Of a stretch of DNA of 64,000 bases, positions 2,983 to 56,292 are shown piece after piece. A program made the translations under genes and the position numbers. This stretch comes from Planktothrix tepida PCC 9214 (GTDB taxonomy: Bacteria; Cyanobacteriota; Cyanobacteriia; Cyanobacteriales; Microcoleaceae): positions 1,282,871 through 1,346,870 of the forward strand of contig NZ_LN889782.1 of the NCBI RefSeq assembly GCF_900009145.1, written 5' to 3'. The notes beneath the pieces were generated by a model. It worked only from the letters and a program-made list of their open reading frames with translations, searched no databases and was not told the DNA's origin. Position 1 is the stretch's first letter. Every line of letters begins with the position of its first letter.

Positions 2983-3205
2983 CACGGTTAAAATCCCTTC
3001 ATTCACTGATGTTTCAAGGTTTCACCCTTTATCATAGAGCGATTCTGAGTTAGTTGTGAATTTTTGCAACAGAGATTAGTTCCAAAATGTGCATTATGGA
3101 CAGTTTGTCAAGCTGTTGTTACGATAATTTACATTTAGTGTGATACAGGTTAACTTAGTCAGTCCGAATCTTTGTGATTTGTACAACTTAGTCAGAGGAG
3201 TGAAT

Positions 3206-3373
3206 ATGAAAACGCCTGCAAACCTCAGTCTTGAACAACAATTCAAGTTACAAGTTCTAAAAGAACAAGTCAAAACCTTAAATTTAGAAGAAGCCCAAGA
3301 TTATTTAATAGAACTGTTATGCCAAAGTATGGTTAAAGATAATCTCCTGCGTCAATGGATTAAAAACCCTTAA
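3206..3373 (+). CDS. nblA: Phycobilisome degradation protein NblA
   Basis: NblA is a very small adaptor that brings phycobilisomes to the Clp protease during nitrogen or sulphur starvation, causing bleaching. The 55-aa product has the classic features: LSLEQQFKLQVL, then LNLEEAQDYLIELL, then MVKDNLLRQWIK, forming the helix pair of the NblA dimer. The reading frame is open further upstream, but the ATG at 3206 has GAGGAG just before it and gives the usual length. Family members normally carry an Arg-Met where this one has LLCQSMV, so one position is unusual. Expression is usually NtcA- or NblR-controlled; only an imperfect NtcA-like site is visible upstream. Confidence 0.93.
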   Translation: MKTPANLSLEQQFKLQVLKEQVKTLNLEEAQDYLIELLCQSMVKDNLLRQWIKNP

Positions 3374-3389
3374 TCAGTTATCAGTGTAG

Positions 3390-3409
3390 AGACGTGCCAT
3401 GGCACGTCT
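3390..3409. repeat. REP-type palindrome AGACGTGCCATGGCACGTCT
   Basis: This is a perfect 20-bp palindrome just after the nblA stop. Closely related palindromes occur inside and upstream of the RAYT gene (51733-51756, 52106-52129, 52181-52204, 52256-52279). It is therefore probably a REP element mobilised by such a transposase. Confidence 0.7.
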
Positions 3410-3465
3410 GTATCAGTCATCAGTGGAGAGTTAGCAGTTAATCGTTTATAGTTCATTGTTAATGA

Positions 3466-3505: not shown

Positions 3506-3540
3506 AACTGATAACTGATAACTGATAACTGATAACTGAT
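3506..3540. repeat. AACTGAT heptamer array, 5 copies
   Basis: Five perfect tandem copies of AACTGAT end at 3540, the same base that begins the complement of the pstB stop codon. Identical arrays occur at 6534-6560 and 10062-10110. They fit the cyanobacterial short tandemly repeated repetitive (STRR) class. Confidence 0.85.
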
Positions 3541-4358
3541 TATCCAAACCGACCACTAACGTATTGTTGAGTGGCTTCTTCTTTGGGATTTTGGAAGATG
3601 GTTTGGGTGTCATCATATTCCACTAAATAGCCAAAGCGTTTTCCACCTTCTATGGCTTTGGCGTTAAAAAATGCCGTCATATCTGCAACTCGTGTGGCTT
3701 GCTGCATATTGTGAGTAACAATAATAATGGTGTAATTTTGTTTGAGTTCGTGAAGTAAATCTTCAACGGCTAAAGTAGAAATTGGGTCTAAAGAAGCACA
3801 GGGTTCATCCATTAACACAACATCAGGATTAATGGCGATCGCCCTTGCAATACAAAGTCGTTGTTGCTGACCGCCTGATAATGCAAAACCACTTTGATTG
3901 AGTTTATCTTTCACTTCATCCCATAACACGGCTTGACGCAGCGATTTTTCGACAATATCATCTAATTCCGCTTTATTTTTAGCTAATCCATTCACCCGAA
4001 CCCCATAGGCAATATTATCATAAATTGATTTGGGGAAAGGATTGGGTTTTTGAAACACCATTCCGATGCGACGACGAACTTCTACCGGATCAACATTAGG
4101 GGCATATAGATTTTGATTATGATAAAATATATTCCCCTTTAATCGAAATCCTTGAATTAAATCATTGAGACGATTAAAACAGCGTAAAATCGTACTCTTT
4201 CCACAACCTGAAGGCCCAATAAAAGCCGTGACTCTATTTTTAGGAATTTCTAAACAAACGCCCCGAACAGCCTTGAAATCACCATAATAGATATCAATAT
4301 TTTCAGTTTGGATGACCGTTTCCATTTCTACCGAGGCATACTGATGAAAATCGTACAT
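3540..4358 (-). CDS. pstB: Phosphate ABC transporter ATP-binding protein PstB
   Basis: The ATPase subunit drives high-affinity phosphate import. The 272-aa protein has Walker [10 protein letters not shown] (48-56), signature LSGGQ (160-164), Walker B VVLMDEP (180-186) and the switch His in [11 protein letters not shown]. The block [19 protein letters not shown] is diagnostic for PstB. The start is an ATG with AAGGAG in front. It is the last gene of a leftward pstS-C-A-B operon. No phoU follows: the gene ends directly on a heptamer repeat array. Length and motifs are normal. Confidence 0.97.
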
Positions 4359-51479: not shown

Positions 51480-52046
51480 TCACATCCACAAATTAGCAGG
51501 ATTATCTTGATCTTCATTCCATTTGGCAGGATTATTAACAATATATTCCTGAATCTTAGCTAATGATTGTTCATCTCGAATGATATGATCATAAAATCGA
51601 GGTTGCCATGCAAAATTATCGTAACCATTTTTACGACACCAACGGGTTACAGAAGATTTATAAGCATTAATAATAGCTTGTAAGGAACCTGGTTTTAAGG
51701 GTGCAAATTTGTTAGATTCATCCGTCCCTTGTAGAGACGTGCCATGGCGCGTCTCTCCGTGTTCTTCGTTCTGCGATCGCTCAATCACAAGAATCCCATG
51801 TACATGATTAGGCATAATAATATAAGCATCTAGGTAAATATCCTGAAAATGATTCGGAATGTCTGACCAAAATTTATTGGCAATTTCACCAATAGCAGAA
51901 AATTGAATATTACCGGAAACGATATCACCAAAAAACCACAGTTTATCCTTTGTGCAAATGGTAACAAAATACCAGCCATTGGCAGCATAATTATGATGAG
52001 GTAATCGTGTAGATTCAATCCGATATTTATTTTTATATAATGTCAT
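51480..52046 (-). CDS. rayT: REP-associated tyrosine transposase (RAYT, Y1-Tnp)
   Basis: RAYTs are single-copy relatives of IS200/IS605 TnpA that move REP palindromes. The 188-aa protein has GWYFVTICTKD at the start, the metal-binding HUH-type motif in YIIMPNHVHGILVI (residues near 75-90), and a C-terminal helix with SSVTRWCRKNGYDNFAWQPRFYDHIIRDEQSLAKIQEYIVNNPAKW, where the catalytic Tyr lies near EYI. A REP-like palindrome is embedded in frame between these parts, encoding ETRHGTSL. Three more palindromes lie upstream. Conserved residues are intact, so the enzyme may be active. Confidence 0.9.
   Translation of the reverse strand: MTLYKNKYRIESTRLPHHNYAANGWYFVTICTKDKLWFFGDIVSGNIQFSAIGEIANKFWSDIPNHFQDIYLDAYIIMPNHVHGILVIERSQNEEHGETRHGTSLQGTDESNKFAPLKPGSLQAIINAYKSSVTRWCRKNGYDNFAWQPRFYDHIIRDEQSLAKIQEYIVNNPAKWNEDQDNPANLWM
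51733..51756. repeat. REP-type palindrome inside the RAYT coding sequence
   Basis: This 24-bp palindrome (core GACGTGCCATGGCGCGTC, one G.T-type mismatch) keeps the RAYT frame open and adds eight residues plus flanks. It matches the copies at 52106-52129, 52181-52204 and 52256-52279. Confidence 0.85.
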
Positions 52047-52080
52047 CGTTGTCCATCCTACATTTATTCTTACCCTACAT

Positions 52081-52279
52081 CACGGCTATATTTCCTAAAC
52101 CTAGTAGAGACGAGCCACGGCGCGTCTCTCTCTTAAATTAATATTTATATCAGATCACGGTGGTGTTCCCTAGATCTCGTAGAGACGCGGCATGGCACGT
52201 CTCTCTCTTAAATTAATATTTATATCAGATCACGGTAGTGTTCCCTAGATCTCGTAGAGACGCGCCATGGCGCGTCTCT
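52081..52279. repeat. 75-bp tandem array with REP palindromes
   Basis: Units start at 52081, 52156 and 52231 with exactly 75-bp spacing; each begins CACGG and holds one 24-bp palindrome (at 52106, 52181 and 52256). The third unit is cut after the palindrome and contains the perfect version. The units share CTCTTAAATTAATATTTATA. The array lies between the chlH stop and the RAYT start. Confidence 0.9.
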
Positions 52280-52308
52280 ACAGGGGGTTATGGATTGTTT
52301 AAAGGATT

Positions 52309-55300
52309 TTATTCAATCCCTTCAATACGGTCTTCAACTTCTTGGTATAACTCGCGCAGACGATCTAAATTCTCTTCGCTGGTTTCCCAATAGCCACGAC
52401 CATTCACTTCTAACAACGTGCTAATAATCTTGCGGAAAGAATGAGGGTTTAAGTTCATCAAACGTTTCTGCATTTCTGCATCTTCAATAAACGTTGTATT
52501 TACATCCTCATACACCCAATTATCCACCGCACCCGCCGTTGCACTCCATCCCATTGTATTAACAAGGCGCTTAGAAAGTTCCCGCACCCCTTCATACCCA
52601 TGAGATAACATTCCTTCATACCATTTCGGGTTTAGAAGTTTAGTCCGTGCATCCAAACGCACCGTTTCCGATAACGTCCGAACTTGAGCATTTGCTGTTG
52701 TTGTATCCGCAATATAAGAGGCAGGTTTTTTGCCATCTTTGCGTAAACTGGAAATTAATTTGGTTGGGTCAGAATCGAAATAATGGGAAACATCCGTTAA
52801 ACTAATTTCTGAAGAATCTAAGTTTTGGAAGGTTACATCTGCGGTTTTTAACGCCGACTCGAAGATATTTCGATCTTGTTCCATTGTCCCTGGATTATCA
52901 GAATTAAAGGCAAAAGATTTGCGCTTCAAATACATTTCCTGTAACTCAGATTCCTGTTCCCAACTGCTATTTTCAACGGCTAAATTAACGTTAGACGAAT
53001 AGGAACCCGACGCATTTGTAAACACCCGAGTTGCCGCTTGTCGGACAGAAACCCCTAATTCTTTCGCTTGTTCTAAAGCGTGTTTGCGAACAAAATTCAT
53101 TTCTAAGGGTTCATCTGCTTCTGCTGCCATTTTCACGGCTTTATCTAACAGCGCCATTTGGTTAATAAATAAGTCGCGGAACACCCCAGAACAGTTAATC
53201 ACCACATCAACACGCGGACGTCCCAACTCTTCTAAAGACAGTAACTCCAACTTATTCACCCGTCCTAACGCATCGGGTACGGGTTTAACCCCCACCATCC
53301 ACATCACTTGGGCGAGGGACTCCCCATAAGTTTTGATGTTATCGGTTCCCCAGAGGACGACGGAGATGGTTTCTGGGTAATTTCCACCATTTTCGACCTT
53401 TTGCCGTTCTAACAGCCGTTCTACGACGATTTGGGCGGACTTGACGGCTGCTGCGGTGGGGATAGACTGGGGATCGAGGGCGTGCATATTTTTGCCCGTC
53501 GGTAACACATCGGGGTTACGGATGGGGTCGCCTCCTGGCCCCGGTAAGATGTATTCCCCTTCTAACGCGCGCAGCAACGAACCTAACTCGTTATCGGCGC
53601 AAACCTGTTGTAAGCAGAATTCCAAATACTCAAATAACGGTTTAATGGGTTCGGGGTCAACTTTGGTAAAACCGGACTGATACAGGGACTCAACCCAGGG
53701 TTCTTTTTTACCCATATTGAAGAAGTTGAGTTTGGAGACTAAGGAAACCCGTCCTTCTGCATCGGTTTGTTCGTGGACTAAGGCGGTAACAGCGGCGCGG
53801 GTGGCTTCCGTGATTTTTTGTAATAACTCCACATCCGCTAATACCCCTAAATTATTATTGCGGTAGAGTTCCTCAATATCGCGGTTGAGGCTATTGGCAA
53901 TAATTCGGGGTAAACTGAGAAGACCTTCTTCTTCTCGATCAATACTGGCGATATTCACCAGGGTTGAAATTGCTTCTTCGGCTGTGGGGGGTTTCCCAAT
54001 GACGTGCAACCCACAGGGTAACAACCGCGACTCAATTTCCATTAACCGCCGATACACTTGTCCGACTATATTATCTCGTTCTTCTGCGGTTAATTCAGAA
54101 GCGTCTTTTTCGGGTAAAGTGACATCTTGGTCTAAATTCACCAAGCGACACTTATCCATAATACTGTTAACAATTGCCACGCCCCGACCGCTATCTTTTA
54201 GGGTTTGATAAGAGGCAATTAACTCGTTGAGTTCTTGCAGTCCTTTATATAACCCTGCGTTTTCTGCTGCCGGAGTTAAATAAGAAATGGTCGCGGCATA
54301 ACTGCGACGTTTGGCGATGGTGGCTTCGCTGGGGTTATTGGCGGCGTAGTAATACAGGTTAGGAATACTGCCAATTAAATTATCAGGGTAGCACTCTCCC
54401 GACATCCCCATTTGTTTACCCGGCATGAATTCTAAGGAGCCGTGCGTGCCGAAGTGTAACACCGCGTCGGCTTGCCAAACTTGTTCTAAATAGGTATAGT
54501 AGGCCGCAAAGCCGTGATGGGGACTGGCTGACCGGGAGAACAATAACCGCATCGGGTCGCCTTCATAGCCGAAGGTAGGTTGAACGCCGATAAACACATT
54601 CCCGAACTGTTTCCCGAAAATTAATAAATTCTCGCCGTCGGTATTTAAGGTTCCCGGTGGTGGCCCCCAATTTTCATTGAGTCGGTCATAATAGGGGGTT
54701 AACCGTTCATATTCGGTAACGGACATCCGATAGGCAATATTCAGTTCTGGGCTTTGATATTGGGCGGTGGCGTCGTGGATGACTTCCTGCATCAGTTTCT
54801 CGGCGGACTCTGGCACGTCTTGAACGTCGTAGCCATTGCCTTTTAAGGCTTTGAGCACTTCATAAATAGACCCGAACACATCCAAATAAGCGGCTGTCCC
54901 GACGTTGCCTTTATCGGGGGGGAAACTGAAAACGGTAATAGCAACTTTTTTGTCTAATTTGGGTTTTTTCCGTAGATTTGCCCATTTTAAAGCTCTTTGG
55001 GCGATCGCTTCAATTCTATCTTGCAGTGCGATCGCTTTTCCAGTTGCCCCATCCCGTCCTGATATAATAATGGGTTCAATAGCGCCATCGAGTTCAGGAA
55101 TAGCAATTTGCAGCGCCACTTGGATCGGATGTAACCCTAAATCACTTTCTTCCCATTCTTCAGTGGTTTGGAAGACTAAGGGCAACGCCACCATATAGGG
55201 ACGGTTTAACCGTTTTAAGGATTCTATTGCTTTTGGGTGATCTTGTCGAGCGGGGCCACCGACTAAGGCAAACCCGGTTAAGGAGACAATAGTATCGACA

Positions 55301-56292
55301 ATAGGTTGGGGTTGAATACCTTTCGGGGGGTTATCCCAGAAATATTCCTCGATGGGTTTAGAAAAGTCTAACCCCCCTGCAAACACGGGTAAGACTCGTG
55401 CCCCTAACGCTTCGAGTTCCTGTACCATTGCCACATAATGGGCATCATCTCCCGTTACCAGGTGGGTGCGTTGCAGCACTAACCCGACGCAGGGGGCGAG
55501 GGGATCTTTTTGGTCATCGGGAATATCGTCGCGGCTATTATTCCACTGGAAATATTCTTTCGCATCCTCGAACATTTTCGGGGCGAGGGGATGCCAAATA
55601 CCCATATCGGGATAGGTTACGGGGTCAGCAAATTGCAGTTTTTCTTTGCCCGTAAACACATATTTTGCCCCTAACATCAGTAGGAAGTTTTCCAGGTTTT
55701 CGGAAGAACCCCCTAACCAATATTGGAAGGATAACATAAAGTTGCGAGCGTCCTGGGCTTTGTCCATCGGCAGGTATTTCAGGACTTTAGGCAAAGTTTG
55801 CAGCAACTTCAACATCGCGTCTTGGAAAGACCCCCCGGACTGTTCTTTCCGTTTTTTCATAAACTGGGCGATGGCACTTTTGCTTTGTCCCAGTTGCGCC
55901 ATTGAGAATGTCCCCATTTTGTTGAGGCGCATCACTTGAGGCATAGAGGGGAAGACCACCGCCACATCCAGTGTATCCCGATAGGGGGTCACGGCCTCAA
56001 CAAGTTTATCGGCTAAATCTTCAATAAAAATCAGGGAGGCGATAAAGATATTCGCCTTTGATAAATCTTGTTTAAAACTTTCGTAGTTTTCCGCAGATCG
56101 TAACTCTTCGATCAAATAACCGCTAATTTCGATCGCAACATTAGGGTTATTTTTGTTAATGGACTCCACTGCTGCCGATAAGGCACTTTGATATTGTGCT
56201 TCTAACACCACATAAACGACTTTCATCAGTTGCCGCCCGTTCAGGTTCTCTGGCTTGATGTGTCTAATGGTGGGTTTTACATAAGTAAACAT
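52309..56292 (-). CDS. chlH: Magnesium chelatase subunit H
   Basis: ChlH binds protoporphyrin IX and, with the ChlI/ChlD motor, inserts Mg2+ in the first committed step of chlorophyll synthesis. The 1327-aa protein matches the usual length and has the DUF3479 N-terminal domain followed by the CobN/Mg-chelatase domain. Blocks typical of the family include [57 protein letters not shown] and [16 protein letters not shown]. It is leftward, with a long upstream intergenic region (56293-56821), and ends on a tandem REP array. Confidence 0.98.

Follow-up and report, generated by a model that had tools for sequence, protein, structure and literature searches.

Genomic REP palindromes in frame in the variable loop of a Planktothrix RAYT gene and of its relatives

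We have found that a RAYT gene of Planktothrix tepida PCC 9214 carries a REP palindrome in its own reading frame, and that the same loop of related genes carries REPs of other sequence and in another reading phase. The gene lies in a stretch of 64,000 nt of contig NZ_LN889782.1 (the window, to which coordinates refer unless a locus is named). The loop REP is probably a tolerated, recurrently acquired copy of the REP of this genome, and we infer that its movement was driven by the RAYT. An in-frame REP in a RAYT is a published trait of the enzyme subclass and not a new phenomenon: according to the available parts of Quentin et al. (2018; PMC6006769), tnpA_REP genes of subclass 2.4 carry REPs without frame disruption, generally between HUH and Y; such internal REPs are called ‘predominant’ in this subclass and may have little impact on activity. 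Beyond that work we add tests of phase, covariation and rate of change on the loop REPs. The locus is a countable case in which a short repeat, scattered through the genome, encodes part of a protein in the gene of the enzyme presumed to move it. Its features are the following.

51480..52046, minus strand: RAYT (TnpA_REP) gene, 188 aa, from the ORF and profile matches; HUH motif NHVH, WQ, Tyr motif YIVNNP
51731..51758, minus strand: in-frame REP, 28-mer with feet; GGAG...CTAC on the coding strand, GTAG...CTCC on the other; encodes GETRHGTSLQ
52056..52279, no strand: tandem array of three 75-nt units, from repeat comparison
52104..52131, no strand: array REP 1, 10/12 inner pairs
52179..52206, no strand: array REP 2, 10/12 inner pairs
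52254..52281, no strand: array REP 3, perfect double-foot palindrome, 14/14 pairs (inner 12/12)
52309..56292, minus strand: neighbour of the CobN/Mg-chelatase family, upstream of the RAYT gene on the same strand, with the array in between
3386..3413, no strand: dispersed REP copy between the NblA ORF 3140-3373 (plus) and ORF 3540-4358 (minus)

The window protein matches Pfam Y1_Tnp (4.4e-5, 24 bits, cut-off 23) and the NCBIfam model REP_Tyr_transpos (NF047646; E 3.3e-16); its 59.5 bits do not reach the 80-bit cut-off of this equivalog, which makes it a relative outside the equivalog. The E. coli TnpA_REP chain 4er8_A was matched at 1.5e-7 by a profile built from 20 relatives, and by analogy with the E. 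coli enzyme the window RAYT would have a putative activity of single-stranded DNA cleavage and joining at REPs. On published motifs the gene is assigned to the TnpA_REP subclass 2.4, or RAYT group 4, kind. The HUH motif of the subclass, NH[IFV]H, is present as NHVH; its W motif WQ and Y motif YIxNNP are present as FAWQ and YIVNNP; the insertion of variable length and sequence with in-frame REPs lies between HUH and the W/Y part; and double-foot or canonical long REPs are found within 1 kb, array REP 3 being a perfect double foot. The accessible text of PMC6006769 gives further points in common, namely flanking REPs, REPs with a double foot of the form GTAG...CTAC and an occurrence in Cyanobacteria, Bacteroidetes and other phyla. 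There is no difference in kind from what it describes; the 75-bp tandem array and the Planktothrix setting are particulars.

An earlier reading of the window from sequence alone (the sequence-only reading) had placed a 24-bp in-frame palindrome coding for ETRHGTSL at positions 51733-51756. It is there and keeps the frame, lying between HUH and the Tyr helix as an imperfect palindrome with 11/12 pairs, or 12/14 when the feet are included. None of 100 synonymous recodings reaches the palindrome score of the window loop. As mRNA the internal REP folds at −13.4 kcal/mol (z −3.17), and 2 of 200 shuffled sequences are equally stable. All four REPs of the locus have a full GTAG foot on the plus strand; the internal REP and array REPs 1 and 2 have one full foot each, and the outermost array REP 3 is the only perfect double foot. 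The core of the internal REP is the commonest one of the genome, GCCATGGC standing in 34 of the 50 sites listed out of 82.

The genome (6.78 Mb) holds 82 exact-arm REP sites, compared with 0 for the reversed control pattern; the double-foot pattern has 64 matches, and the window contains five matches with at most two mismatches, where 100 shuffles average 0.06. The family consensus is a double-foot GTAGAGACG-N10-CGTCTCTAC. As in the GTAG superfamily, a GTAG stands at the foot of the hairpin, copies are many and dispersed, and most are extragenic: of the 50 listed sites, which include four in the window, 43 do not lie well within an ORF, under a rule that takes ORFs of at least 90 codons with 25 codons to the left and 10 to the right of the site and uses no gene calling. 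The other seven are in-frame copies within large ORFs, namely that of the RAYT and six more: a DUF3326 protein, TrpD, a family 2 glycosyltransferase, a glutamate synthase, an AMP-binding enzyme and an ORF without a Pfam match. The in-frame REP is therefore not peculiar to the RAYT in this genome, and the description of such a REP as unusual for a RAYT has to be dropped, both on this count and because the available parts of PMC6006769 report it as predominant in subclass 2.4. In the DUF3326 protein (L003:1315-2496, minus strand) a tandem NAPRDAPR-like stretch runs into the in-frame REP, as though codons that came from the REP had multiplied.

Intragenic REPs are reported from several species in a 2013 survey (PMC3733652, available parts), whose GTAG-tagged REPs resemble those of the window in the GTAG foot, in being dispersed palindromes and in lying partly inside genes; what is available of the survey differs from the present case in making no mention of a REP inside a RAYT gene, and Planktothrix occurs 0 times in its main text. 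The Rickettsia palindromic elements, cited there, are likewise short palindromes in frame in genes; they differ in belonging to CGTC-tagged sequence families. Short repetitive sequences of 41-46 bp resembling REPs are described for Planktothrix in connection with microcystin genes (PMC9366434, available parts). The SDR5 repeat has one mention in the accessible part of PMC4390886, which cites Elhai et al. 2008 on very small mobile repeats in cyanobacteria, and the terms looked for are confined to the reference list in PMC4766695. In the open-licence literature we found no published description of in-frame REPs in Planktothrix and no published mention of GTAGAGACG in cyanobacteria.

Ten genomes of the genus, the present one included, contain two orthologues of the window RAYT, 93% and 95% identical, and both (in G002 and G007) carry a REP at the same place. 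The G002 orthologue (L019) has a longer loop with a partly repeated REP, and one upstream REP; that of G007 has three upstream REPs. A wider search gave 163 loci with 140 ORF hits, duplicates included, which reduce to 97 distinct genes with the window gene among them; by record titles, the relatives are spread over several phyla. The 97 passed a filter of text patterns for HUH and W/Y that dropped, among others, the REP-bearing L019, and one of the six search peptides (EEHGETRH) overlaps REP-coded residues, which biases the set towards REP bearers.

Foot octamers are found in the loops of 66 of the 97 genes, as against 1/97 in the upstream 85 aa and 2/97 downstream, and 50/97 loops reach a palindrome score of at least 10 compared with 2/97 upstream 85-aa parts. 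In 47 of the 97 genes the loop palindrome stands out from 100 synonymous recodings at p≤0.01. The feet are of two types, GTAGAGAC and GTAGGGGC-like. Among 58 5′ feet, 46 and 12 fall in two reading phases and 0 in the third, in which the foot would place a TAG stop in frame. Feet picked on the left side only (58 in 50 genes) have 25 different left cores; the five core pairs are complete in 38 of the 58, and pairing averages 4.33/5 compared with 1.80 in a control with the right half taken from another gene. Tandem repeats occur in 12/97 loops. In a RAYT from a Lunatibacter salilacus record (L084:9985 onward) the loop palindrome spans 50 bp, compared with the usual 28.

The alignment of homologues, proposed earlier as a check on the inserted REP, came out in its favour: palindromes of other sequence stand in L104 (68% identical), palindromes in the other reading phase in L063 and L064 (about 57-58%), and none in L106 (60%) and L108 (53%). 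With two phases and differing palindromes, the loop is not one inherited peptide. A quick tree from which the loop was left out, and in which 40 of the 93 inner branches are open, shows at least 8 phase changes among the 42 loops of the first foot type (200 label shuffles gave a mean of 11.9 and a minimum of 8) and 3 changes of foot type (shuffled mean 16.4). Foot type is nearly constant on the tree, and much of the pattern is therefore inherited. Among the 61 bearers there are 13 class changes, maybe one too many on account of the label of L051, which is doubtful as GTAGGGG, like those of L027, L047 and L050, and was kept so; some palindrome-bearing loops in which no foot was recognised were counted as N.

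The rate of change was measured in 14 disjoint close gene pairs chosen by rule, which are partly dependent, three coming from one Planktothrix paralogue family. Changes number 35/389 in the REP, 137/1537 in the rest of the loop and 458/6264 in the core; at third positions the figures are 14/125, 70/516 and 275/2089. The REP is unchanged in 5 of the 14 pairs, and 11 of the 35 REP changes come from a single pair, L045/L057, in which a copy has decayed. Within the limited power of these 14 pairs, the REP shows no slower change overall than the rest of the loop, and weak or recent selection on it is compatible with the test. In hand-picked pairs (13 tried, 12 counted) the REP had seemed more conserved; these pairs had been chosen with an intact REP in one member, and this result was set aside, since the 14 rule-based pairs show no difference.

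The rate test speaks more for tolerance and turnover than for regulation, and gives no support to the earlier suggestion that the in-frame REP serves self-regulation, in which binding of the RAYT to the hairpin of its gene or mRNA would limit its expression. A hairpin stabler than its shuffles, feet concentrated in the RAYT loop, arms that co-vary and the five close pairs with an unchanged REP would all fit a selected regulatory site, but the REP and the loop around it change at about the same rate, at third positions too, and open-frame genes exist without a REP or with a decayed one (L039, L106, L108, L163, L021, L022), so that we regard such a site as distinctly unlikely. Some chance, if a small one, is left to the gene as a carrier of a master copy, in which case horizontal transfer would carry the enzyme along with its cognate REP and new REP families would be seeded from the internal copy. 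The relatives in several phyla would fit this, as would the internal type being the commonest in the window genome and in G003 (among the sites listed) and the loop foot in all 27 genes that start with M[TI]LY[KQ]NKYR, a group defined after the data had been seen; the 14 close pairs, however, reveal no constraint on the internal copy, many REP-bearing genomes have no such RAYT, and flanking REPs would do the same job.

That the order was the reverse, with the loop an ancestral coding sequence and the dispersed REPs derived from it, could also account for the foot in all 27 of these genes and for a foot type that tracks the tree with 3 changes; we think it very improbable, since the loop, with its two phases, two foot types and 25 left cores, does not hold one inherited protein segment. 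Chance, or protein-level conservation of ETRHGTSL with the palindrome as a by-product, is scarcely credible: phase 0 does prevail (46/58 feet), but no synonymous recoding in 100 reaches the score of the window loop, and relatives encode other residues with equally good palindromes. Tolerance alone leaves unexplained the excess of REPs in the loop over the rest of the same genes; the yardsticks for this excess were the remainder of those genes and a uniform scatter, under which the 82 genomic sites would give 0.007 per 567-bp gene.

Under the preferred reading, a tolerated and recurrently acquired copy, the RAYT would move or copy REPs in the form of single-stranded DNA, and the sites at which they are repeatedly inserted or rewritten would include its own gene. 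In the loop they would be tolerated in the two reading phases without a TAG stop, and loop copies would later decay or be replaced. The earlier idea that the transposase's own gene served as a target and tolerated it thus stands as far as a genomic REP in frame in a variable loop goes; mobilisation is suggested by co-occurrence, and no clean empty-to-filled pair for the loop was found among the RAYT genes compared.

The REP of the window RAYT also lies in frame in linkers of core metabolic enzymes. In TrpD (L006:682-1782, minus strand; named from its Pfam domains and a reading of the sequence) it stands between the N-terminal helical and the catalytic domain, and among the eight species read (G006 and G008 left out) P. 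tepida alone has it, the seven congeners being without. In the glutamate synthase (L165) it stands in the linker that joins GATase_2 to the central domain. Compared over nine Planktothrix species (L195-L203), this linker carries a two-foot REP in P. tepida, G007, G004, G005 and G009 (the G009 piece was extracted out of frame and is scored for presence, not for reading frame), a shortened one in G008 and a decayed one in G001, G002 and G003. The two-foot REPs have four different cores. Both arms differ between congeners, with CGCCATGGCG in P. tepida, whose listed REPs have GCCATGGC cores in 34 of 50 cases, and TTGCATGCAA in G005, where the latter type makes up 15 of the 27 listed REPs, the linker site counted in; G004 has TTGCATACAA there, with no comparable abundance of that type shown. 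Another reading, which we hold to be rather unlikely, is that RAYTs of this clade rewrite REPs where they stand, both in the RAYT loop and in other coding linkers, and so keep a fixed coding site in step with the current REP type. Whether such replacement takes place can be tested directly on the differing cores of the glutamate synthase linker; if it were true, RAYTs would homogenise short coding segments besides moving REPs.

Across 386 cyanobacterial genomes, REPs (at least 3) and a RAYT (E≤1e-40) occur together in 18, the RAYT only in 3, REPs only in 41 and neither in 324; the corresponding numbers within the order are 11, 2, 41 and 51 (p=0.008), a weaker association than over all 386, and both statistics ignore kinship. 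The proposed co-occurrence is thus strong over the 386 genomes with kinship ignored, whereas within the genus REP counts show no difference between the three genomes with an orthologue and the seven without (p=0.52). A strict dependence of REP and RAYT is rejected by the 41 genomes with REPs only and the three with a RAYT only. At E≤1e-30, 27 of the 59 genomes with at least 3 REPs have no RAYT; when 18 of these, picked as REP-rich without such a match, were searched again, 15 had none at E≤1e-8. In REP-rich genomes without a RAYT of the window kind the mover may have been lost, or may be another enzyme.

The pairing is also seen in the sequence of the REPs. A copy of the internal REP occurs in the flank at 11 of 22 loci with long flanks, compared with 0/22 in the control. 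In G003 the REP of its own RAYT (L023) makes up 21 of the 40 GTAGGGG-type sites listed out of 72; among the three genomes of the genus whose cores were listed for this comparison (G001, G002 and G003), it is found at 0/14 sites in G001 and 0/21 in G002, where no such RAYT was found, with a near variant occurring once and twice, respectively. The commonest among the GTAGGGG-type sites of both G001 and G002 is a second double-foot family, GTAGGGGTAATTCATGAATTACCCCTAC.

The three palindromes upstream of the RAYT gene, at starts 52106, 52181 and 52256, do have the 75-nt spacing read from the sequence. Identity to the RAYT-proximal array unit is 70% and 73% for the two units on the Mg-chelatase side. 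Because only one such unit is present in one close relative, the array presumably grew from a single REP with its spacer, duplicated in tandem. Array REP 3 lies 27 nt from the stop codon of the Mg-chelatase ORF, which we take to be chlH, and as RNA folds at −23.6 kcal/mol. No RAYT stands in the chlH 3′ spacer of G001, G003, G004, G005 and G008; in these five congeners (L134, L135, L136, L139 and L140) a stem-like or REP-like remnant is seen shortly past the chlH stop, so a palindrome 3′ of chlH may predate the RAYT. Gene order differs further downstream among the congeners, so the ends of a mobile unit cannot be fixed from these empty sites; the comparison left out G006, and the G009 contig stops early in unrelated sequence. 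At the other end of the window, the 24-mer of the dispersed copy (3388-3411) begins 14 bases past the last base of the NblA ORF, and the ORF on its far side presumably encodes PstB. This 24-mer has 11/12 pairs, and the perfect 20-bp palindrome that had been noted near nblA at 3390 is indeed perfect (3390-3409).
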